Below, piece after piece: positions 31,156-49,153 of a stretch of DNA of 49,153 nucleotides (positions within the stretch are counted from its first letter, which is position 1; the number at the start of each line of letters is the position of its first letter). A program made the position numbers and the translations under genes. This DNA comes from a virus, in IMG/VR virus record IMGVR_UViG_3300048592_001393, positions 1-49,153 of that record; one strand, given 5' to 3'. The notes under the pieces are model-generated. The model was not told the origin of the DNA, searched no databases, and worked only from the letters and a program-made list of their open reading frames with translations.

Positions 31156-32190
31156 TTAAGGTGTGGTGACTTCCATCCAGTGATAATCCCAGTGCATGCT
31201 GCGATTGCCCGCGATGCCTGTCAAACCAAGAGCGCAAGGAAAAGGCTTTAAGCCCGCTGTGAAAGATACATTCTGAGTTGAAAGCAAAACGTCGTCAAAA
31301 TACGTTTTGCACTCACAAACGAAACTGGTATTTGCTACACGCGATACAAGGGTATATTCAACCCTGAAAATATGCGAAAGCAAGTCCACGGCAGGACCTT
31401 GAACCCAAGTGCTATTGGCAGTGCCAGCCGATTTTTGTCGAGAATACCAGAAATTTTTTATTGGCGCTTGTCCATTGCACTGCAATCCGCTGTAAGCGAA
31501 ACCACTGATTTCCTGATCCATTTGCTGCGCGGAAAGAAGACTTCCAAATCCAAAAGCTACATCATTTGAAACCGGTAAACTTATCAGCCGTCCTCTGCCC
31601 TCGATTATTAATTTGGTTCCTATTGGAACAGATTCGCCGTTTGATCCGACTATTTCCCAGTTAAAAGTAAGGTTGTTCGACCAGCTTATTCCAGCTCCCG
31701 AACTTGAAACAGTCATTTCAAGATATCCCATATATCCTGCGCTCATACTTTGTCGCCTTGCGCAGGTAAAACTCCCATTTCCCGAAGAGGTCATAAAAAC
31801 GCCCGAAGTCCAGACAGTTGTTGGCAGGTATTGAAAGTAATCGTCGAAAATATTTATTTTCTGCTTTCGAAATCCTTTTGGTGTTTCATCGTTATATTTG
31901 AGCATAACGGAACTTCCGCCACCGCCTCCCGATTCGTCGGCCCATTCGGTGTCGTAGTCAGTGTTTGAAGTTTTTTTCAGAACCTGTCCGGTGGTTCCCC
32001 CTGCAGGGACACCTTCACCAGCTGGACCTTGCGCACCAGTCGCGCCTTGCGGTCCCTGCGGTCCTGTCTCCCCTTGGATCCCCTGCGGACCAGTTTCACC
32101 TTGGGGACCTTGAATTCCTTGCGGTCCCTGGGGCCCCTGCGGACCGGGATCACCTTGCGGACCAGGAACTGGAAACGTGACCAAACCCAT
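31156..32190 (-). CDS. Collagen-like tail fibre, 344 aa
   Basis: Residues 10-60 are seventeen Gly-X-Y triplets ([19 protein letters not shown]), forming a collagen-like triple helix. Then comes the fibre junction phrase [20 protein letters not shown], a glycine linker (SGGGGGS) and a C-terminal beta domain of about 240 residues. Trimerising fibres of this type carry receptor-binding tips. The gene is followed by small beta proteins. The product could be a second fibre beside the RCC1 one. Confidence 0.8.
32011..32163 (-). repeat. Gly-X-Y coding repeat of the collagen-like fibre
   Basis: Seventeen consecutive triplet codons with Gly at every third position, many reading Gly-Pro-Gln. The DNA is a near-repeat of 9-18 bases and may vary in length by slippage. 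Confidence 0.75.
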
Positions 32191-32208: not shown

Positions 32209-32727
32209 TTAAACGCTGGAACGCCAGCGTGAGTTTTTTGCAAAAAATCCTGACTCAGCTTTCACCTTGTCCACGTATTGCTGATTTTTGCATTTGCCTG
32301 TGTCGCATCCTGCAGCGCTCCCCTGGTTATATGCGCTCACTGCTTTCCAGGTGTCGCCATTATATTTCTGCAGCAAATTGTTCCAGTAAACCGAGCACCA
32401 GTGGACGTTCGTTTCCACGTCAAGCAAACCAGGGAGCGGTCCCCTGTATCCGAGCCAGCGCGCTGTTCCCCCCATTATTTGCCCGAGCCCGTAGCTGAAT
32501 TTCTGCAGCGTGATTTCTGTCTGCAGAGTGATCCCGCATTGCTTCGCAAAAAATGGAGCGTTATAAACCCACTGGTATTCAGGTTCGAAACGCATAGCAA
32601 ACGGATCATACTGCGATTCGACGCGAAAGATCGCAGCAAGGATTGGATCGTCGGTCGGAACCGTGGCCGGCGTGAGGAACCGCCGAACGTATAGTTCACG
32701 GTTTTCGCTGTTCAGTGTTTTTTCCAT
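32209..32727 (-). CDS. Lytic transglycosylase (SLT-type endolysin), 172 aa
   Basis: A GH23-type lysozyme that cleaves peptidoglycan. The signature is AIFRVESQYDPFAMRFEP, with the catalytic Glu in RVESQYD, then YGLGQIMGGTARWLGYRG, then KAVSAYNQGSAAG. No signal peptide is seen, so export would need a holin. The N-terminal extension is charged. It lies between the collagen-like fibre and a methyltransferase gene, and could also be a tail-associated enzyme. Confidence 0.85.
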   Translation of the reverse strand: MEKTLNSENRELYVRRFLTPATVPTDDPILAAIFRVESQYDPFAMRFEPEYQWVYNAPFFAKQCGITLQTEITLQKFSYGLGQIMGGTARWLGYRGPLPGLLDVETNVHWCSVYWNNLLQKYNGDTWKAVSAYNQGSAAGCDTGKCKNQQYVDKVKAESGFFAKNSRWRSSV

Positions 32728-33314
32728 ATCGTCTGGTATCCTTGGTAAAGAGGACGCAAACCGATCGTTTTCATGAATTCAGCCACAACCCAATGCTTGC
32801 CTTCATATTCCTCGTGACAGTCGTCAACCATGATCATACAGCCTTTCGGGAGTAGGCCATATACCAGTGCGAGTTCCGCCATGTGGTGAAACGCGCTGGC
32901 TTGATTCAGCTCAGGCGTCCAGTCGAAAGAGTCGAGATACAAAAGCATGCAGTCCTGCAAGATCTTGCGCGCTTCGTCGGTCTGGAAAAATTCAAGGCTG
33001 TTCCGATTTATCCCGATCACTTCGGGACACTCTTTTCGAACGCGCTGAATCGCGCCTTGATCTATGTCGATCGAAACAATTGACAAAGCTATATTGGAAT
33101 TCTTACGGCGGCACCAGTCCCATATTGCGGTTGAACGACCGTCCCCCCACCAGCTGGCTGCGCCCCATGCCCGCATGCAGCCCGTTTCGATAATAAAAGC
33201 TGATTTTTTCAAACTTAAAAGGTGATCGACTGCAATTTTGAAACTCTGCGCACGGTGTTCCAATAGGTCGAATTCGGGGAGCTGGTCGAACTGTTTGATT
33301 TCATGATTCAGCAT
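32712..33314 (-). CDS. SAM-dependent methyltransferase, 200 aa
   Basis: A class I methyltransferase fold: FIIETGCMRAWGAASWWGDG (motif I), then ALSIVSIDIDQGAIQRVRKE, then LYLDSFDWTPELNQASAF and GCMIMVDDCHEEYEGKHWVV. It resembles TylF/Methyltransf_24 sugar O-methyltransferases. The ATG at 33314 is chosen because GGAGG lies upstream with ideal spacing. It overlaps the downstream end of the glycosyltransferase gene by 14 bases, so the two are coupled. Confidence 0.7.
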   Translation of the reverse strand: MLNHEIKQFDQLPEFDLLEHRAQSFKIAVDHLLSLKKSAFIIETGCMRAWGAASWWGDGRSTAIWDWCRRKNSNIALSIVSIDIDQGAIQRVRKECPEVIGINRNSLEFFQTDEARKILQDCMLLYLDSFDWTPELNQASAFHHMAELALVYGLLPKGCMIMVDDCHEEYEGKHWVVAEFMKTIGLRPLYQGYQTIWKKH

Positions 33315-34338
33315 AGGCGGGCAGCCTCCATATATCGAAAAGGCGTTCAGCAAGCTGTTCGGGATCAGGGAGCACGCGCGACCAGAACTGATCGTCGGGG
33401 AGCTGATCATAGTTCAGCGCGAAGGGGTTCAGCGGGTTCCAGTCCAGTTCATGCTGCAGACAGGTTTGAGCGAAGTCCCATTGGTTCCAGCCCAGCTTGC
33501 CAGCCCTATAGTGCATCAGGTGCCAGCCCGGACGCGCGGAACTGATAAAGCCTATGCGCGCCCCGTCGCCGGCTGCAATATGCAGGGGAGCGCTGTCGTT
33601 CGTGAAAACCTTGTCAGCGTGTGAAAGAAAGCTGATCAGATCTTTCAGCTGAAAGTCGGGATCGTTCCGCAGGTCGATCGAATCGCCTGGCAATGAAAAG
33701 TCCAGGACACCGTTTTCCCCGTCCGAACTGTTTCGACCGATCACGATAGGAACCCATTTTTCGGAAAGCTTTTGCGCAAACGGTTCCCACCATATTTCAG
33801 GTATGGTGCGACTGGGCCACGTTCTGCCAGGATGCAGGAAAATGAATCTCTGTGGGGATCGCAGGAAATCCTTGAAAAGCGGGTGATCGCTCTTGGATTT
33901 AGACAGCACTATTTGTCGATCGCGCGGGGGTAGGGGACGCTGCAGCGCAGAAATTGAAATCAGGTCAACGGTCGGTATCGCGCCTGGCTGAACGAATTCC
34001 CATAGCAAACCTTCCTTTAGACCGCTTTCAAAAAAGCGATACTCGCGCAGGTCGATTTCCGAAGAAAAGCTGAGCGTCTTTACTTTCAGGTGCGAAAATA
34101 CTTCCGGGTATTCGGTGAGGACTGTCAGGTCTGCAGCTGGAAACTTTTGCAGCATATAGCGAACGGTCGGTTCGCAGCAAACCACGTCCCCCAGTCCACC
34201 GTAAGCACCGAACAGCCAGCGCTTTGTCTTTCCTCGTTCCATAGCTTCCTTGTTCCGGTAGCTCGGGAGCAAATGAACCGGGAGCTGAATCACGTCCCGG
34301 TCAAGGTCTATTCCCCGCTCGTTCACTGGCTCACTCAT
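33301..34338 (-). CDS. GT9-family glycosyltransferase (heptosyltransferase-like), 345 aa
   Basis: The GT9 marks are clear: FGAYGGLGDVVCCEPTVRYM in the N-terminal Rossmann half, then FLHPGRTWPSRTIPEIWWEP and the nucleotide-sugar site VFTNDSAPLHIAAGDGARIG. The C-terminus is a less conserved lid. This family transfers heptose or similar sugars onto LPS core. The ATG at 34338 overlaps the preceding GT9 gene by 4 bases. Such genes are rare in phages and may modify host LPS to block superinfection or decorate virion proteins. Confidence 0.82.
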   Translation of the reverse strand: MSEPVNERGIDLDRDVIQLPVHLLPSYRNKEAMERGKTKRWLFGAYGGLGDVVCCEPTVRYMLQKFPAADLTVLTEYPEVFSHLKVKTLSFSSEIDLREYRFFESGLKEGLLWEFVQPGAIPTVDLISISALQRPLPPRDRQIVLSKSKSDHPLFKDFLRSPQRFIFLHPGRTWPSRTIPEIWWEPFAQKLSEKWVPIVIGRNSSDGENGVLDFSLPGDSIDLRNDPDFQLKDLISFLSHADKVFTNDSAPLHIAAGDGARIGFISSARPGWHLMHYRAGKLGWNQWDFAQTCLQHELDWNPLNPFALNYDQLPDDQFWSRVLPDPEQLAERLFDIWRLPAYAES

Positions 34339-35378
34339 GATAAAGCCCCTTCCAGCTGAATGATCGACTGGACGGTATTTAGGGGGTGTCCGATCATTTC
34401 CAGCATGCGTTCGCGTGTGCATCCTTCCAGAATCAGGTCCTGGCCAGTGCAGAAATTGAACCCCCCTTCGTTAAACATATTGTCGCGGTTAAGGTGGACC
34501 ATACCCGCGCCGAATACCCCCTTGCGCCAGTGATACAGGTAGTCCTCATGTTTCACAGTCGCCAGGAAATAGATCCTGGCTTTCCCCGACGCTGCAATGT
34601 GAAGGGGAGCACTGTCGTTTGTCAGAACCCGCTTGCAGCGTTTCAGAACCGCGATCAGCGCGGGAAGGGAAAGCTGGTCCCTTAGATCGACAGCGTTTTC
34701 GCTTGGGACTACTTTGACGTATCCCTGATCATGTCCAAGGTCCCGACCGATCAGAACGACCTGGAAGCGCTGCGCAAGGCGATTGATCACTTCCTGCCAC
34801 CAGTCCAGCGGGAAGGTCTTACTAGGCCAGTGCCGGCCAGCGTGAACTACGATCGCTTTTTCCCAGTCGATCGCTGCGTCCATCCCAGCTGGCAGTTCAT
34901 AGTCGGGGAGCACGATCGCGCGTTCGGCAACGGGAAGTTGCATCCGAACAATCGACTGCGAAATGAAGTCCACGCTATGAGTGACCATGTGGTTAAAGAA
35001 CTGCCATTGCAAATAATCAGGCGGGTGAATTGTCTGGCTGACATAAAATTCCTTGTCGTTCGGTTTGTCGTCGGGACCGAAAACCGCTTTCAGACGCGCA
35101 TCGCGGAACAGTTCAGGCCATTCGGTTTTAACGTAAAGGTCAATTTCGGGCATCCTGTTCAGGATGAACTGAATCGTCGGAGTCGCGCAGACAGCGTCCC
35201 CCAAACCGCCCCAGGTATAAATCAGCCATTTGTTTGCAAGGCCGGCTTCGCGCGCACGCTGCGCACGAAAACCGGGAATATGAAAGGCCGGCAGCTGCAT
35301 AACAGGGATTTCAGGATTTTTCAGCCAGTCCGGAACCTGATTCGTCCGATCCTGGAAAGCTTCTTTTTTGAGTTTCAT
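34335..35378 (-). CDS. GT9-family glycosyltransferase, second copy, 347 aa
   Basis: A paralogue of the neighbouring GT9 gene: YTWGGLGDAVCATPTIQFIL, VVHAGRHWPSKTFPLDWWQE and VLTNDSAPLHIAASGKARIY. The two share the same order of motifs and a similar length, so a tandem duplication with divergence is likely. Both lie in a coupled block with the methyltransferase gene. The start has the AAAAGAGCACC leader motif just upstream. Sugar and acceptor specificities cannot be read from sequence. Confidence 0.82.
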   Translation of the reverse strand: MKLKKEAFQDRTNQVPDWLKNPEIPVMQLPAFHIPGFRAQRAREAGLANKWLIYTWGGLGDAVCATPTIQFILNRMPEIDLYVKTEWPELFRDARLKAVFGPDDKPNDKEFYVSQTIHPPDYLQWQFFNHMVTHSVDFISQSIVRMQLPVAERAIVLPDYELPAGMDAAIDWEKAIVVHAGRHWPSKTFPLDWWQEVINRLAQRFQVVLIGRDLGHDQGYVKVVPSENAVDLRDQLSLPALIAVLKRCKRVLTNDSAPLHIAASGKARIYFLATVKHEDYLYHWRKGVFGAGMVHLNRDNMFNEGGFNFCTGQDLILEGCTRERMLEMIGHPLNTVQSIIQLEGALS

Positions 35379-35407: not shown

Positions 35408-36745
35408 TCAGTATTCGACGATCACAGAATCGACGATCGGTCCGACGACATTCGATCCGAAGGACGCACCGATCACGTTATTCAGAGTCACTGTGTAAGA
35501 CGTTCCAGGCGTCACGTCCAGCACGCTCACGAATTCGGTCGGATCAGCCTGATAAATCGGATGCGAAAGCAGAACGGGAGTCGATTTCGATGCGATCGTT
35601 CCATCCCCAAGGCGACCGCTTGCATTATTCCCCCAGGAATAAGTCGCAAGGTTTTTCGTCTGTCCCCAGTACCCGCCGCCGAAGGAATTCAGTCGCAGGA
35701 AATCATAACCGGTAAGGACCTGCACCGGGCTTGACCTATGGGTTCTGTCGTTCAGACCGAACTGGCCATAGCTGTTCGCTCCCCACCCGTAATAGTTTCC
35801 GTTCGTCGCTTTTGCGATCACGGCTGCACCTGCCAGCGCTTCGTCGTAGGCTGAATAAAGTTCGGTGAAAACGAGCGAAGCTTGCGAAGTCTGAATCGGT
35901 GTGAATTTGTCGTTTCCGAACCCACTGGTCCCGTCCCCGAGTTCACCGTTATAGTTCGCTCCCCAGGCCCAGACCTTCCCGTCTGATTTGAGCGCACCAT
36001 AACTAAACGCCATTTGCACGACTTTGACGAACGAACCAGTAAGAACTGAAACTTTGACGGGACTGGACTTGCTGGTTCCCGGTCCGTTTGTTTCGATGCC
36101 GAGCTGTCCTTCGTCGTTTCGTCCCCAGGCGTAAACTTCACCCGCAGAGGAAATAGCGATAACAGACTGATCACCCGCAGCCACGTCGATCCAAGTCAGA
36201 CCGCCGACGACCAGAACCGGGGAACTGCGATTCGTGATCGAATTATCCCCTAATTGCCCGTAAGCGTTCCCGCCCCAGGCATAAAGCTTCCCGTCGCAAG
36301 CCAGGCCATAAGCGGAAGTGTGAGTCGATACGACGACCTTTTTGAATTTCAGTCCACCGACGACCATACCGGGAACCGATACTGCACCGGTCGTCGTGTT
36401 CTGGCCTAAACCCCCTTCGGTGTTTGATCCCCAGCTATAGGCCAGTCCGTTGCGCGTGATCCCGACAGTATGGGGATAGGAAGCGCCTCCCCCGTTGCTG
36501 ACTTGAATGAATTTCAAACTCCCGTTGGTCTTTACCGGTGAACTTTTCGCAGTGATCGAAAAATCCCCCAGCTGTCCGTTTGAACCTGCACCGACAGCCC
36601 ACGCATCATTATCCTGGTCGATGAAAAAGTTTGCGGTCCCGTTTCCTTCCATAACTGGCGGTCGTCTGATCCCGCGCACGCGAACCTTGAAAACACCGGC
36701 TGGCGCGACAAATGTCCCATCGGCTGTATATACTCTGCGTCCCAT
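35408..36745 (-). CDS. Tail fibre with seven RCC1 repeats (beta propeller), 445 aa
   Basis: The N-terminus (TFVAPAGVFKVRVRGI) and C-terminus (VTPGTSYTVTLNNVIG, then SFGSNVVGP) match the start and end of fibre domains with the TFTVPAGV pattern. Between them are seven RCC1-type units, recognisable by WGxNxxGQLG-like phrases (WAVGAGSNGQLGD, YSWGSNTEGGLGQ, YAWGGNAYGQLGD, YAWGRNDEGQLGI, WAWGANYNGELGD, YGWGANSYGQFGL, YSWGNNASGRLGD). Seven repeats form a closed propeller. The protein lies among fibre genes and is probably the receptor-binding tip. RCC1 repeats are best known from eukaryotic RCC1 and some bacterial surface proteins. Confidence 0.85.
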   Translation of the reverse strand: MGRRVYTADGTFVAPAGVFKVRVRGIRRPPVMEGNGTANFFIDQDNDAWAVGAGSNGQLGDFSITAKSSPVKTNGSLKFIQVSNGGGASYPHTVGITRNGLAYSWGSNTEGGLGQNTTTGAVSVPGMVVGGLKFKKVVVSTHTSAYGLACDGKLYAWGGNAYGQLGDNSITNRSSPVLVVGGLTWIDVAAGDQSVIAISSAGEVYAWGRNDEGQLGIETNGPGTSKSSPVKVSVLTGSFVKVVQMAFSYGALKSDGKVWAWGANYNGELGDGTSGFGNDKFTPIQTSQASLVFTELYSAYDEALAGAAVIAKATNGNYYGWGANSYGQFGLNDRTHRSSPVQVLTGYDFLRLNSFGGGYWGQTKNLATYSWGNNASGRLGDGTIASKSTPVLLSHPIYQADPTEFVSVLDVTPGTSYTVTLNNVIGASFGSNVVGPIVDSVIVEY

Positions 36746-37245
36746 TAACAGTTCCCCCTGCGCAATATGAACCAGTCCGTTCCATCGGTGACGACTTCGA
36801 CAAATCCTGCAGCCTCATAAATAAAAAAGTCTGCAGCCACGTTCCCGATCAATTCGGATCCGTTGCGCTGCAGCCGAATATAGTTCGAAAGGCTTGCGTT
36901 CATTTCCTTGTCGATAGCCACGAAAGAATATCCCGAACCCACTACAGCGGGATCCGGAAGGTCAAGCGTGACAAGCGCCGACGTGCAGTCGCATAACAGA
37001 ATTTTTTTGTTATCCCCCGCTCCCATCGCTTTCGTGCCCGTGACCGATTCGACGACGGGATCCGAAGGGAACGCCTGGTAAGGGTTCCCCCCCGACGAAA
37101 ACTTAAGGATATTCGTCGATGCTTCGACCTTGAAACCAGGCGGTGATCCGTTGCCATTGTCAAAAATAAGCCCCAGGTCTGTCGTGTTTGATTTCGGTCC
37201 TATTTTCAGGACGTGCGCGACAATGCGTTCGATCAGCGATGCCAT
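36745..37245 (-). CDS. Tail fibre protein, 166 aa
   Basis: It starts with a helical trimerisation-like segment (LIERIVAHVLKIGPKSNTTD), then fibre strands (DLGLIFDNGNGSPPG), then the phrase NKKILLCDCTSALVTLDLPD and YIRLQRNGSELIGNVAADF, and ends in TDGTDWFILRRGNC, the pattern found at tips of fibre proteins. It overlaps the RCC1 gene by 1 base. Confidence 0.65.
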   Translation of the reverse strand: MASLIERIVAHVLKIGPKSNTTDLGLIFDNGNGSPPGFKVEASTNILKFSSGGNPYQAFPSDPVVESVTGTKAMGAGDNKKILLCDCTSALVTLDLPDPAVVGSGYSFVAIDKEMNASLSNYIRLQRNGSELIGNVAADFFIYEAAGFVEVVTDGTDWFILRRGNC

Positions 37246-37248
37246 GCG

Positions 37249-37899
37249 TTAATACTCCACTATGTTATGTGCGATCACTGGCGCGTAGGTCGATGGGACC
37301 GCTGAGTCGTCGATAAAAGCGGTGATCGACGAATCGAATTTGCATCCCATGATCCGACAGCGACGCGCGGTGGAATTGAGCAGGATCGCAATGTCCCCGA
37401 CAGAGGACCAGCCCGAACTGAATTCCGCGCCGTGGATTTCGATATCCCCTGCGTTCAGGATCAAAGCCCTGGTCGCAGCTGCGTCTGACTTGAAAAACCG
37501 AAAGCCGGGTTCGAAGTAAAGGCGCACAGACTTGGAAATCGTGATCGCTGCGGTCAAAAACGCATTGGCATTGGAAGGGGAAACATAGATGAAATCACCG
37601 TTCAGAACGTCCGACGATGCAAGCGCATCCTGAATCGTAGCGAAGTGACAGCCCGACTGCGCACCGACGAACCATTTCATCATTGGAATTCGCGGCGCGC
37701 GTTCGTCCAGGTTCTTTTCCCATTTCTGGCTGATATAGTGCAGCCAGTTCATGTAAGGCGCTGGTGGAAATCCCCCCGCTTGCCATGTTGCCTCCTGCAC
37801 TTCCGTAGGCGGTTCGACGATATTGGTTCCGGGTGAAGGATTATTTTCGCCCCACTCCGAAAACGTCGAAGGTCTGTCGTTTACAATTGTGACGGCCAT
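37249..37899 (-). CDS. Tail fibre or tailspike protein with beta-helix region, 216 aa
   Basis: The N-terminus carries the fibre attachment pattern ATWQAGGFPPAPYMNWLHYI. Then a parallel beta-helix-like part (FATIQDALASSDVLNGDFIY; ILNAGDIEIHGAEFSSGWSS). The end HNIVEY fits a beta-strand closure. It is a short fibre that probably sits between baseplate and the longer fibres. Confidence 0.65.
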   Translation of the reverse strand: MAVTIVNDRPSTFSEWGENNPSPGTNIVEPPTEVQEATWQAGGFPPAPYMNWLHYISQKWEKNLDERAPRIPMMKWFVGAQSGCHFATIQDALASSDVLNGDFIYVSPSNANAFLTAAITISKSVRLYFEPGFRFFKSDAAATRALILNAGDIEIHGAEFSSGWSSVGDIAILLNSTARRCRIMGCKFDSSITAFIDDSAVPSTYAPVIAHNIVEY

Positions 37900-37922: not shown

Positions 37923-38534
37923 TTAGGTTCGTTCGACCAGTCCAGCCCACTTTCCCCCGACCGTTTCCGCGATATCGGAAAAGCCTTTCCCGACTCCGAC
38001 AGGTCCCCCGGCGAAACAAAACGTATCGGCTGCATCGACGCCTGGCGCGGGTGTGCTGATATAGGTAAGCGACACACCGTCGGCAAGGATGCGTTCAAGC
38101 TGTTCATAAACGAACGCTGCATTTACTGGCGGGAACGTCCCGTCCCCGAACAGCCCGACGCATCCTTTCCCTAGGTTCTGATAATGGACGACGTTTGCCA
38201 CCATGATCAGTCTGAACGCCTGAATGATCGCCCGCGGCTGTCCCTCGGAAAAGTTTTCCGCGATTTTGACCTTGATCAGGATGCGATAAAAGTCGTCGGC
38301 AAATCCTTGCCGTGGCTGTTCGACCAGCGATCCGATCAGGTCCAGCGCGTCCCCTTCGGCAAGTTCCAGCGTGTCGTTCAAAAGCACGCTGAACGCTGCG
38401 TTTTCCAGGTCCTGAACCTGTCTGGAAATCGAACGAATCAGCGCTTCAATTCGTGGCTTGCCTTTGTATTGCCCGGCAAGGCGCGCGACCGCGTCGTCCT
38501 CATGCGTCGTTATCTGTATGATTTCCTCTGCCAT
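37923..38534 (-). CDS. Baseplate protein, DUF2612-like, 203 aa
   Basis: A wedge-type baseplate component (gpI-like). The family phrase is RLAGQYKGKPRIEALIRSIS with LENAAFSVLLNDTLELAEGD, then LIGSLVEQPRQGFADDFYRI, as in DUF2612. The C-terminus has FAGGPVGVGKGFSDIAETVG, which is typical of this family. The ATG at 38534 is chosen over the in-frame start at 38669, which would intrude into the J gene. Confidence 0.75.
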   Translation of the reverse strand: MAEEIIQITTHEDDAVARLAGQYKGKPRIEALIRSISRQVQDLENAAFSVLLNDTLELAEGDALDLIGSLVEQPRQGFADDFYRILIKVKIAENFSEGQPRAIIQAFRLIMVANVVHYQNLGKGCVGLFGDGTFPPVNAAFVYEQLERILADGVSLTYISTPAPGVDAADTFCFAGGPVGVGKGFSDIAETVGGKWAGLVERT

Positions 38535-38547
38535 GAAAACCCCCGCT

Positions 38548-40413
38548 TTAAACGATCGTCGTATTGATTTCGATGCGACCTGAATCGAACCGTGCGATTT
38601 CATCCGCTTCGATCGGGATATTGTCGTCCAGCGTGGGGTTCGCAGCGGTCCCAATTCGGATCGTGACACCAGTGATCCCTGCGACCGATCCGAACGAGCC
38701 GATCAGGTAAGGGAACACGATCACGCTGTCGCCCATGGTGAGCGATTCGCCATATCCCAGGATCGCTGCGCGTACCAGTGCGACGCCATTCTGGGGAAAC
38801 GCTGTCGTGACCAATAGGTCAACCTCGACATAAATGTCGATTTCCGACGCAAGGTCGAACGCCACTGGCTGGGTGAACCCGTCGTCGTCGATCACGTTCA
38901 CCGTCTGGGATCCGTAAAAGCCGATCCCTGCAGCGACCGAGTCGAACAGAGTTTCGCCTATGTCCTGGTTCGATCCCCCGAGGACGACCGCGCGGACTGA
39001 TTTCCCAGGAACCCCGTCCCCGTCCGTGACCAGCGTGCGATTGGAGTAAACGACTGCATCTTCCACGTCCTCAACCTGCAGCAATGCAGCCTTGATCGCG
39101 TTTTTAGTCGCGCGACCAGTCGAACCGATTTCCTCTTTCCGACGCAGTTTGAATTCTGCGGTCGTTTCGATTTCCCGACCGACTTCCGCGTCCGTTGGGT
39201 TTGTCACTTCGTCCCAGCCAGACACCGTGGTTTCGATCACTGTCAGCGATCCCGCCGGCGCTTGAACTTCCCCCGCTTCGACGGCTGTCGCAGTCCCGTC
39301 CCCGTAGGGGGACAGCCCTTCCTGTTCCTCGGTGATCGCGGGAACGAGTTCCCCAACGTCCTCACCGACCTGATCGACTTCCACCGTGAAACCGGTATTC
39401 GCAGCCTGAATATCCGAAACGTCGATTTCCTCGACTATGCTGAACGCGACTTCGTTTGTATTTTCGACCGCAGCTGAATCAACGATCAGCGTTTCCGCAG
39501 CCAGCGCAGCCTGCAGAGCGGTCGCCACGGCACCAGCGGTCGCACCGGTCGAAATAGCGACTTCGATCTGAGTGTCCTGCGCCAGCGCACCTGCGGGCAC
39601 GACACCAGCTCCCGACACGTTAAACCAGACGCCGGCCGTAAGGTTATTCCCATAGGCAAATATGAAGTATTTGTTATTCAGCGATCCCGCCACGTCCGCG
39701 ACCGTGGTCACGCGATACTTGGTTTGCGCTGCGAGTGTGTTCGCTCCGATTTCAAGCAGGGGCTGCGCTGACTCTGCGTTATCCCCGACAAACTCAATAT
39801 CGAAAGCCAGCGCCGATCCCGCTTCGACCGTCGAATCAGTCACTGTCACTTCGTCGATGCCGACAAGCAGTTCCAGCGCAGCTTTCAAGGTCGCTGCATC
39901 GACAGTCGCTCCCGTTATGCTCCCCGTTGCATCCCCATCATATACAAGGGTAAACGCGCCTGAACTTGGAATGCTTGCGAAAGAAATTCGCTGCACTGAG
40001 TTCTGGCCAGCGCCAATCGTAATTTCGGCGTCCGTTGCGAACCTTGCTTCGGCGTTTCCTTCGACTGAAATGAATGATCCCGCTGGAATGATCGTCGCCA
40101 GAGTTCCGAACGCTCTGACAGCGACCTTGCTATACGTCGCTCCGAGCCGGGTAAGGTTCGCAAATTTTGCGACTTCGTCGAATTGAACCCCTTCCGCGTA
40201 ATCGGGATAACGCTGCAGGTATATTTGCTGCAGGAGTTCCCAGAATAATGATTCGCGTTCCGAGAAAATCCCGATGAATTGTCCGATCGGTCTGCGCGCA
40301 TCGACATCGACACCAGCTCCATAGGTCCCCCTAAAGTCGTTTTCGAGTTCATCTTTCACGTCCGCGAGTCGCTTGATTTTCAGTCCCTGCGAAGTAAGTC
40401 CATACGTAGGCAT
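38548..40413 (-). CDS. Baseplate J-like protein with large insertion, 621 aa
   Basis: The J protein forms the wedge ring of the baseplate. The N-terminus (YGLTSQGLKIKRLADVKDEL, then FSERESLFWELLQQIYLQRY) matches the start of J, and the J core is recognised from about residue 380 (EIETTAEFKLRRKEEIGSTG; ALLQVEDVEDAVVYSNRTLV). Between them lies a beta-rich insert of about 250 residues (105-370) with SSGAFTLVYDGDATGSITGA and YGNNLTAGVWFNVSGAG segments. The total length is well above typical J proteins. The insert may be an Ig-like or carbohydrate-binding module. Confidence 0.8.
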   Translation of the reverse strand: MPTYGLTSQGLKIKRLADVKDELENDFRGTYGAGVDVDARRPIGQFIGIFSERESLFWELLQQIYLQRYPDYAEGVQFDEVAKFANLTRLGATYSKVAVRAFGTLATIIPAGSFISVEGNAEARFATDAEITIGAGQNSVQRISFASIPSSGAFTLVYDGDATGSITGATVDAATLKAALELLVGIDEVTVTDSTVEAGSALAFDIEFVGDNAESAQPLLEIGANTLAAQTKYRVTTVADVAGSLNNKYFIFAYGNNLTAGVWFNVSGAGVVPAGALAQDTQIEVAISTGATAGAVATALQAALAAETLIVDSAAVENTNEVAFSIVEEIDVSDIQAANTGFTVEVDQVGEDVGELVPAITEEQEGLSPYGDGTATAVEAGEVQAPAGSLTVIETTVSGWDEVTNPTDAEVGREIETTAEFKLRRKEEIGSTGRATKNAIKAALLQVEDVEDAVVYSNRTLVTDGDGVPGKSVRAVVLGGSNQDIGETLFDSVAAGIGFYGSQTVNVIDDDGFTQPVAFDLASEIDIYVEVDLLVTTAFPQNGVALVRAAILGYGESLTMGDSVIVFPYLIGSFGSVAGITGVTIRIGTAANPTLDDNIPIEADEIARFDSGRIEINTTIV

Positions 40414-47587: not shown

Positions 47588-47857
47588 GTCCAATAAACAG
47601 GTGTATTTTGATCGCCTGGAAGGGGGGATTTCCCAAAATCCTGGAGTCTGATTAAAACGAGTGCAATATTGATTATGTCTTATTCAACACAACAAACAAT
47701 AATGCTGTTGCTGAATATAATTAATAACGTACCGCTGAAAGTGGTGTGTTGATGAATGGTGCGTTTCCGCTTTGGCGCATTTTTGCACAAAAAGTCCCTT
47801 CCTCGAGACCGCTCGGCCGGGCACAATCGAAAAATAGGAACGGGAGGGCCCAGCGGC

Positions 47858-49153
47858 ATGGACGATAGCGCAAAAAATAAACAGAAAAACCCAGGGCAGG
47901 GGGCTGCTCAGGAATCGAAGGATCCAGACGGCCGTCATATCCTGGCCCTGCGGGTCATCAAAACGCTGGAGGCCGCTGGCTATCAGGCCCGCCTTGCGGG
48001 CGGCTGCGTCAGGGACCGGCTGCTTGGAATTCATCCCAAGGATTATGATGTCGCCACCACCGCCTTGCCCGAGGAAATCTGCACAGTTTTTAAACAGAAA
48101 AACATCAAGGTCGTGCCGACTGGAATTGACCACGGAACAATCACCGTCGTAATCGCTGGACAAGGCATGGAGGTCACGAGCCTCAGACGCGATGTCTCAA
48201 CCGATGGAAGACGCGCCACGGTTGCGTTTGGCAGGGGTTTCGAAGAGGATGCGGAGCGCCGGGATTTTACCTTCAACGCCATGTTCGAGGACGCTGAAGG
48301 CCTTATCTACGATTACTTCGGTGGCCAGGAGGACCTGAAAGCAGGACACCTGCGTTTTGTGGGCGTGGCTCAGGAAAGGATACGTGAAGACTACCTGCGC
48401 ATTCTGCGCCTCTTCCGGTTCTGGTCGCGTTTCGGCTTCACGCCCGATGCCGCGACTCTTGAGGCCTGCCGGGCCGAGGGGCAGGGCCTTCGTATCGTAA
48501 GCCAGGAGCGCATAACGCATGAGCTTATGGAAATCCTGCAGGGCGATCATATCGTAGGCCCGCTAGACGCAATGGCCAGCACCGGGATCCTGAATCTGGT
48601 CCTGGGCCTTCAGTCCATTGCCGATGGCGAATTGAAGCGCATGGACGCCTTAAAAATAAGCAGAAAAGAGGAGAGGGGACCGGCCCGTCTCGGGATTCTG
48701 CTGCGACTCCGTTTTGGTCATGATCCAAAGTCCTTTGAAGACACGATGCAAAACCTTCGCTTATCGCGCAGCATCCAGCAAAAAGTAATGCTTTCCGCCT
48801 TTGTCCCCTTGGATAAACTCGGGCATGATCCCGCCATTATCATGGATCACATGGATGCGTGGGAATTCCAGGGCGCGTCCTTCATGGAAACGTTGCTCCC
48901 GCTTTGGCGAGCGCTGTATCCGGAACACAAAAAGACTCTCGACGAAGTGGAAGGTATCGAATCCCGGCATGGCCTGCGTCGCCGTTCCAAGGTTCCCGTT
49001 GATGGCCAGGCGCTCATAGCTCAATGTGGTGCCAAGCCCGGCCCTGAACTCGGACTGCTGCTCGTGGAATTGAAAAGACGCTGGCGCCTTGGTGAATGGC
49101 AGACCCGGGACGAAGGTCTGGAGTTAGCCCGAACGATCCTGGCTGGAAAATAG
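47858..49153 (+). CDS. cca: CCA-adding tRNA nucleotidyltransferase, 431 aa
   Basis: A bacterial tRNA-maturation enzyme that adds or repairs the 3' CCA end. Class II features: LAGGCVRDRLLGIHPKDYDV with the GG and DxD metal site (D in KDYDVAT), then RRDFTFNAM, then a helix with QERITHELMEILQGD. The length fits a short version without a long extra domain. The ATG at 47858 (GGGAGGGCCCAGCGGC upstream) is preferred over the open frame that reaches to 47756. Its codon pattern differs from the phage genes, so it is best taken as host DNA flanking the element. The final base of the window is its stop codon. Confidence 0.9.
   Translation: MDDSAKNKQKNPGQGAAQESKDPDGRHILALRVIKTLEAAGYQARLAGGCVRDRLLGIHPKDYDVATTALPEEICTVFKQKNIKVVPTGIDHGTITVVIAGQGMEVTSLRRDVSTDGRRATVAFGRGFEEDAERRDFTFNAMFEDAEGLIYDYFGGQEDLKAGHLRFVGVAQERIREDYLRILRLFRFWSRFGFTPDAATLEACRAEGQGLRIVSQERITHELMEILQGDHIVGPLDAMASTGILNLVLGLQSIADGELKRMDALKISRKEERGPARLGILLRLRFGHDPKSFEDTMQNLRLSRSIQQKVMLSAFVPLDKLGHDPAIIMDHMDAWEFQGASFMETLLPLWRALYPEHKKTLDEVEGIESRHGLRRRSKVPVDGQALIAQCGAKPGPELGLLLVELKRRWRLGEWQTRDEGLELARTILAGK

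Follow-up and report, generated by a model that had tools for sequence, protein, structure and literature searches.

Why does a contractile-tailed phage keep a propeller of the RCC1 type, named after a eukaryotic chromatin protein, among its tail-fibre genes, and what might the propeller do there? The question was raised by an IMG/VR record of 49,153 bases (the window, by which we mean the whole stretch of DNA analysed), whose terminase, portal, capsid, sheath, tape measure, and baseplate hub and wedge genes identify it as a contractile-tailed phage. An earlier note, made from the letters alone, had described an RCC1 propeller inserted into a tail-fibre protein. The open reading frame was placed exactly, at 35408-36745 on the minus strand, with an ATG start and 445 amino acids. 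The features of the gene and its neighbours are as follows.

35408..36745 (stop included), minus strand: putative RCC1-propeller fibre-tip protein, 445 aa (open reading frame with ATG start; RCC1 domain E 1.5e-55; ortholog in L001)
36671..36745, minus strand: residues 1-25, the N-terminal portion of a fibre domain of the Gly_rich_2 type, RRVYTADGTFVAPAGVFKVRVRG (profile match)
35561..36661, minus strand: residues ~29-395, predicted seven-bladed RCC1-type propeller, limits approximate (seven RCC1 stretches; AF2 model; Foldseek)
35411..35536, minus strand: residues 404-445, the C-terminal portion of that Gly_rich_2-type domain, EFVSVLDVTPGTSYTVTLNNV..ASFGS..DSVIVEY (profile match; without RCC1 signal)
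36745..37245, minus strand: 166-aa fibre-type protein directly upstream of the RCC1 gene (open reading frame; weak PHROG match; syntenic in L001)
37249..37899, minus strand: 216-aa fibre protein (phrog_2126 tail fiber, E 3e-3; syntenic in L001)
37923..38669, minus strand: gpI-like baseplate protein, DUF2612 (PF11041, E 1.4e-8; PHROG baseplate, E 1.5e-16)
38548..40413, minus strand: gpJ-like baseplate wedge protein (phrog_6, E 1e-51)
31156..32190, minus strand: collagen-like tail fibre, the other fibre carried by this virus (matches to PF01391 and to PHROG tail fiber)

Transcription runs from the gpJ-like gene through the gpI-like gene and two fibre-type genes to the RCC1 gene, and the end of the gene for the 166-aa protein shares one base with the RCC1 start codon. 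The true start of the gpI-like gene is probably the ATG at 38537, since its ortholog in the related virus L001 begins at that ATG. The N-terminal part of the 216-aa protein resembles phage tail fibres. On the 3' side of the RCC1 gene come two GT9 genes, a small gene without an assigned function, a transglycosylase gene, and the gene for the collagen-like fibre. The RCC1 gene lies after the baseplate genes in the fibre block of a contractile-tailed phage, which is the location of a phage tail-fibre gene and bears out the context that had been read from the sequence.

The related virus L001 encodes the same 445-residue protein, 87% identical over its full length, with the same architecture and gene order. 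Between the two genes dN/dS was 0.115. We conclude from this ortholog and ratio that the gene is real and has been kept intact under purifying selection.

The two adjacent heptosyltransferase-like (GT9) genes, at 33301-35378, lie within the tail-fibre block between the RCC1 gene and the collagen-like fibre gene. In two cyanophage-like loci, RCC1 tail genes are followed by genes for long TPR and glycosyltransferase-looking proteins and by oxygenase-like genes, as judged by eye. Modification of the fibre or of surface sugars is a possible role of such glycosyltransferase neighbours. A small transglycosylase (SLT) gene (32209-32727) sits among the fibre genes, outside any lysis module. The right end of the record (47756-49153) holds a gene of the phage poly(A) polymerase or tRNA nucleotidyltransferase type, despite which ARAGORN found no tRNA genes in the window.

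The RCC1 repeats and the closure of the ring

The seven RCC1 repeats were recovered by curated profiles. PF00415 marked seven stretches in the 445-aa protein (E 2.1e-51, 173 bits against a cut-off of 21.7), and the RCC1-like domain PF25390 covered residues 48-418 (E 1.5e-55, 189 bits against a cut-off of 150), so that the protein exceeds the curated cut-offs of both and belongs to the RCC1 repeat family. A profile search of the window placed the repeats singly, from 35489 to 36610, with six of the seven above the curated cut-off. Their spacing is about 50-60 residues, not the ~45 first estimated. A sequence search of the PDB matched UVR8, HERC2, RPGR, and RCC1, with E values as low as 5e-34.

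We modelled the protein with AF2, using an alignment of 34 viral sequences as input. The model contained a propeller at residues ~46-395, with pLDDT mostly 80-96 and a pTM of 0.77, which matched UVR8 and HERC2 in Foldseek (target TM 0.85-0.88) and also RCC1; from the single sequence, AF2 gave a pLDDT of 30 and no usable model. The seven-repeat propeller expected of a structure prediction was thus obtained, and the expected packing together of the terminal strands was not, the ends having pLDDT mostly below 50. These low values are due to the coverage of the ends by only two sequences. The 445-aa protein is therefore predicted to be a seven-bladed RCC1-type propeller in which the closure of blade 7 is uncertain. 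It would share its fold, which is familiar from proteins of plants and animals, and not its function, with eukaryotic RCC1; Ran exchange-factor activity is not expected in a phage.

Only the first two strands of repeat 7 are recognisable, and one reading of this last blade would do away with the insertion. It holds that this is an ordinary RCC1 tail protein whose C-terminal VLDVTPGTSYTVTL forms strands three and four of blade 7, so that a fibre origin would apply to just the first 25 residues, fused to the propeller. The PF25390 match does extend to residue 418 and the last repeat to ~419, the AF2 model has a strand at 417-423, and in the alignment F405 falls on a W that is conserved among the other viral RCC1 proteins. 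A viral RCC1-repeat profile, however, follows repeat 7 only to STPV(L), at about residue 391, and the tail beyond this point adds no RCC1 score, being equalled by 920 of 1000 shuffled tails. As a control, second halves raised the score in repeats 1, 2, and 3, but not in repeat 6, and because repeat 6 gains nothing, the tail test is supportive and not decisive. The tail also beats 172 true RCC1 C-ends on a glycine-rich fibre profile. Since it contributes no RCC1 signal, the C-terminal tail is better explained as fibre, and we judge an ordinary RCC1 protein with a fused N-terminus to be rather unlikely.

On the simplest reading of the inserted arrangement, blade 7 would be closed by strands from the N side (about residues 29-43) together with strands from the C side (368-392). 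Residues ~36-46, before the first WG, have by eye the look of the fourth strand of a repeat and were weak in the profile test. Such a closure would let both chain ends leave the ring side by side, as an inserted domain requires.

The two ends and the Gly_rich_2-type fibre domain

The segments flanking the propeller had been described as resembling two halves of one fibre domain. When the two ends were spliced and searched against Pfam and PHROG, nothing was returned beyond a weak match to PHROG 863, and purpose-built half-domain profiles were therefore needed. We gathered Gly_rich_2 (PF21722) domains from cyanophages, other viral contigs, and the genomes of one bacterial class, built one profile from their first 30 residues and another from the VTPG strand region, and scored both ends of the window protein, of L001, and of 172 other viral RCC1 frames, with 2000 shuffles per end. 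The window protein and L001 were absent from this broader profile. One viral protein among the controls, L087, forms a row in it, so its score is not independent.

The N end (~25 residues) matched its half-profile with an E of 6.2e-7 (1.9e-7 in L001), above all 2000 shuffles, and the sole better control among the 172 RCC1 frames was L087, which has a true, complete Gly_rich_2 domain before its RCC1 repeats. The match of the C end (~40 residues; E 1.4e-3, and 6.1e-4 in L001) exceeded all 172 viral RCC1 control ends and all 2000 shuffles; the runner-up, a shuffle, had an E of 0.19. With an earlier C-half profile made from cyanophage sequences only, the C end was not significant. Split Gly_rich_2 ends were confined to the window protein and L001; the other viral RCC1 frames inspected, 172 in number, had none. 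The resemblance of the flanks to two halves of one domain was in this way upheld at the level of sequence.

A full-length Gly_rich_2 profile aligned both ends colinearly, at model positions ~2-24 and then 48-68 (the latter being residues 407-427), with an E of only 0.047. Both the N-terminal strand motif and the VTPG..YTV strand motif of the family are present and in the right order. Only the first glycine loop appears to be absent from the alignment, and the propeller would occupy that place. Neither the intact protein nor the spliced ends reached the Pfam cut-off for Gly_rich_2, as expected for a domain that is split and stripped. The glycine-rich loops of the family are replaced by the propeller or shortened here, and the 445-aa protein is not assigned to it. 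Matches of the spliced ends by tblastn in Streptomyces phage records were rejected as chance-like (E 5, on the strand opposite to annotated genes).

Proposed place of the propeller on the fibre

When the Gly_rich_2 profile was run against all solved structures, it matched the fibre gp24 of the myocyanophage Pam3 over the full domain (7YPX, 7YFW; E 7e-6), and also the bacterial protein RemZ. In Pam3 gp24, six glycine-rich loops make up the distal tip and are proposed to bind the receptor (PMC9608196). By mapping onto gp24, the propeller would be distal and would stand at loop 1 of the tip. We favour, with somewhat more than even confidence, a fibre-tip adhesin in which the propeller takes the place of the receptor-binding loops of a split Gly_rich_2-type base. 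Strands from residues 1-25 and 404-445 would form a small beta-sandwich base, as in Gly_rich_2 fibres and those of the Pam3 gp24 type. In this base, the first distal loop, normally a glycine-rich loop of receptor recognition, would have given way to the complete propeller, and the remaining glycine-rich loops would have shrunk. At the distal end of the fibre, the propeller would bind to a surface protein or sugar of the host, a function suggested by its position and by precedent. The 445-aa protein would itself be attached to the upstream fibre proteins. It has no N-terminal docking domain of its own, the fibre strand starting at residue 3, and docking would presumably need a partner. The fibre-tip reading is supported because the position matches the tip loops of Pam3 gp24 and because RCC1 fibres have precedents; we count against it the low-confidence AF2 ends, the missed Pfam cut-off, the E of 0.047, and the missing docking domain.

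Divergence within the tail block bears on the same point. Between the window and L001, identity was 95% for the baseplate proteins, 95% for the 216-aa protein, 92% for the 166-aa protein, 87% for the RCC1 protein, and 44% for the collagen-like fibre, the most divergent gene of the block. Because of the 44% against 87%, specificity may lie in the collagen-like fibre, which may be what chiefly determines host range in these two viruses, and this counts against the adhesin reading. The fair conservation of the RCC1 protein would also suit a structural or decorating tail part, a rigid spacer or protein-protein hub that ties the collagen-like fibre to the 216-aa and 166-aa fibres without binding to a host receptor. 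The RCC1 propellers of UVR8, RCC1, and HERC2 are protein-binding platforms, as such a hub would be. A spacer or hub nevertheless fits poorly with a position that corresponds to the distal tip loops of Pam3 gp24, and with a T7-like fibre in which RCC1 domains form the C-terminal part, and we consider it unlikely.

Four IMG/VR scans returned no further members of the lineage of the window virus and L001. For the 166-aa, 216-aa, and baseplate proteins, relatives were found only in the sister virus and in one distant virus without a comparable fibre, and hence no propeller-free ancestor of the RCC1 gene was found. A quick tree of RCC1 domains, with many weak forks, put the pair on a very long branch that pointed to no donor, which leaves the acquisition from a surface protein proposed in the earlier note unsupported. 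Only nine RCC1 relatives came out of a scan of bacterial genomes. Two MAGs, one of Bacteroidales and one of Ignavibacteriales, have contigs with an identical RCC1 match, identity, and length, and this contig is probably shared or misbinned.

RCC1 propellers in other phages and comparison with known fibres

The earlier note took such a propeller to be of a kind seldom described in phages, but RCC1 proteins are frequent in viral contigs. A profile-based scan of IMG/VR confirmed RCC1 proteins in at least 593 stretches, tblastn with the 445-aa protein matched 15 of 50,697 phage records, and a viral structure library yielded 239 matches with an E of 0.001 or less, some of them outside phages. Pseudomonas phage Ppr_SeaP3 has a T7-type fibre N-domain (PF03906, just below the curated cut-off) followed by RCC1 repeats, the tail fibres of the Pseudomonas phages PollyC and Littlefix have an RCC1 domain that is SeaP3-like by structure, and C. 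difficile phages carry giant RCC1 proteins in the fibre block. RCC1 proteins in phages and RCC1 domains on T7-like tail fibres are therefore already known. At five viral loci, up to six adjacent RCC1 genes of ~450 codons, with differing N-terminal parts, lie on one contig; such runs are suggestive of a diversifying adhesin family.

RCC1 proteins have been detected by mass spectrometry in virions of phage W70 (PMC11370258), GAP32 (PMC5259590), and phAPEC6, where they are named DNA condensation protein and where the authors suggested a part in DNA ordering (PMC7247149). An internal DNA-ordering protein in the window virus, as the phAPEC6 authors proposed for RCC1 proteins of jumbo phages, would draw on the name of the fold and on this detection in virions of other, larger phages. 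Yet the gene lies in the tail-fibre block and not in the head block, the ends of the protein are fibre-like, and elsewhere RCC1 is fused to a T7-type fibre domain; we regard DNA ordering as highly improbable here. In a literature search that left most subscription journals outside its scope, we found no paper that ties phage RCC1 proteins to receptor binding, and a paper on receptor-binding proteins of Littlefixvirus does not mention the propeller.

Insertion of an RCC1 propeller into a Gly_rich_2-type tip domain seems to be new, seen here only in the window virus and L001. The insertion holds as a matter of sequence comparison and may point to the fibre tip as the workplace of phage RCC1 propellers. 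A propeller in the tip loop that carries the proposed receptor site offers a concrete, testable adhesin alternative to DNA ordering in the head for this widespread group of proteins. We put forward tentatively, as a proposal that falls a little short of even chances, that fibres of the Pam3 gp24 type have, in their glycine-rich tip loops, a site where whole binding domains can be exchanged, and that the many phage RCC1 proteins without an assigned role make up an extensive, barely described group of propeller adhesins that do not condense DNA. That the tip domain apparently tolerates a whole foreign fold, as suggested here, bears on the evolution of phage host range.

With other phage RCC1 proteins (PHROG 4219, 7220, and 16766; W70_237-239, GAP32 gp1, phAPEC6 gp549/551, and proteins of cyanophages and C. 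difficile phages), the 445-aa protein has the seven-bladed RCC1-type propeller in common, and several members of these PHROGs are virion-associated and often encoded in tail gene blocks; those examined differ from it in having different or no flanking domains. The T7-like fibres of SeaP3, PollyC, and Littlefix resemble it in that an RCC1 propeller makes up the far part of a tail fibre. In SeaP3, however, a T7-type docking domain comes first and the propeller is joined to its end, whereas the propeller of this contractile-tailed phage splits a domain of the Gly_rich_2 type. In the viral protein L087, which is the same protein as L189, Gly_rich_2 is likewise combined with RCC1 repeats, but there the Gly_rich_2 domain is complete and the many repeats come after it, a tandem and not an inserted arrangement. 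As in Pam3 gp24 and Gly_rich_2 fibres such as that of cyanophage S-RIM44, the strand motifs stand at both ends in identical order. Those fibres end in glycine-rich tip loops, while here loop 1 would be a propeller of ~370 residues and the other loops are shortened or gone; Pam3 gp24 also has an N-terminal helical docking domain, which the 445-aa protein lacks. In the T2-type tip protein gp38, glycine-rich helices and protruding loops bind OmpC (PMC12892980). The likeness to gp38 of T2, S16, and PP01, small tip proteins whose loops on a glycine-rich base set the receptor (PMC12892980), concerns only the way in which they act: a sequence match was neither expected nor observed, and the binding element here is predicted to be a propeller.
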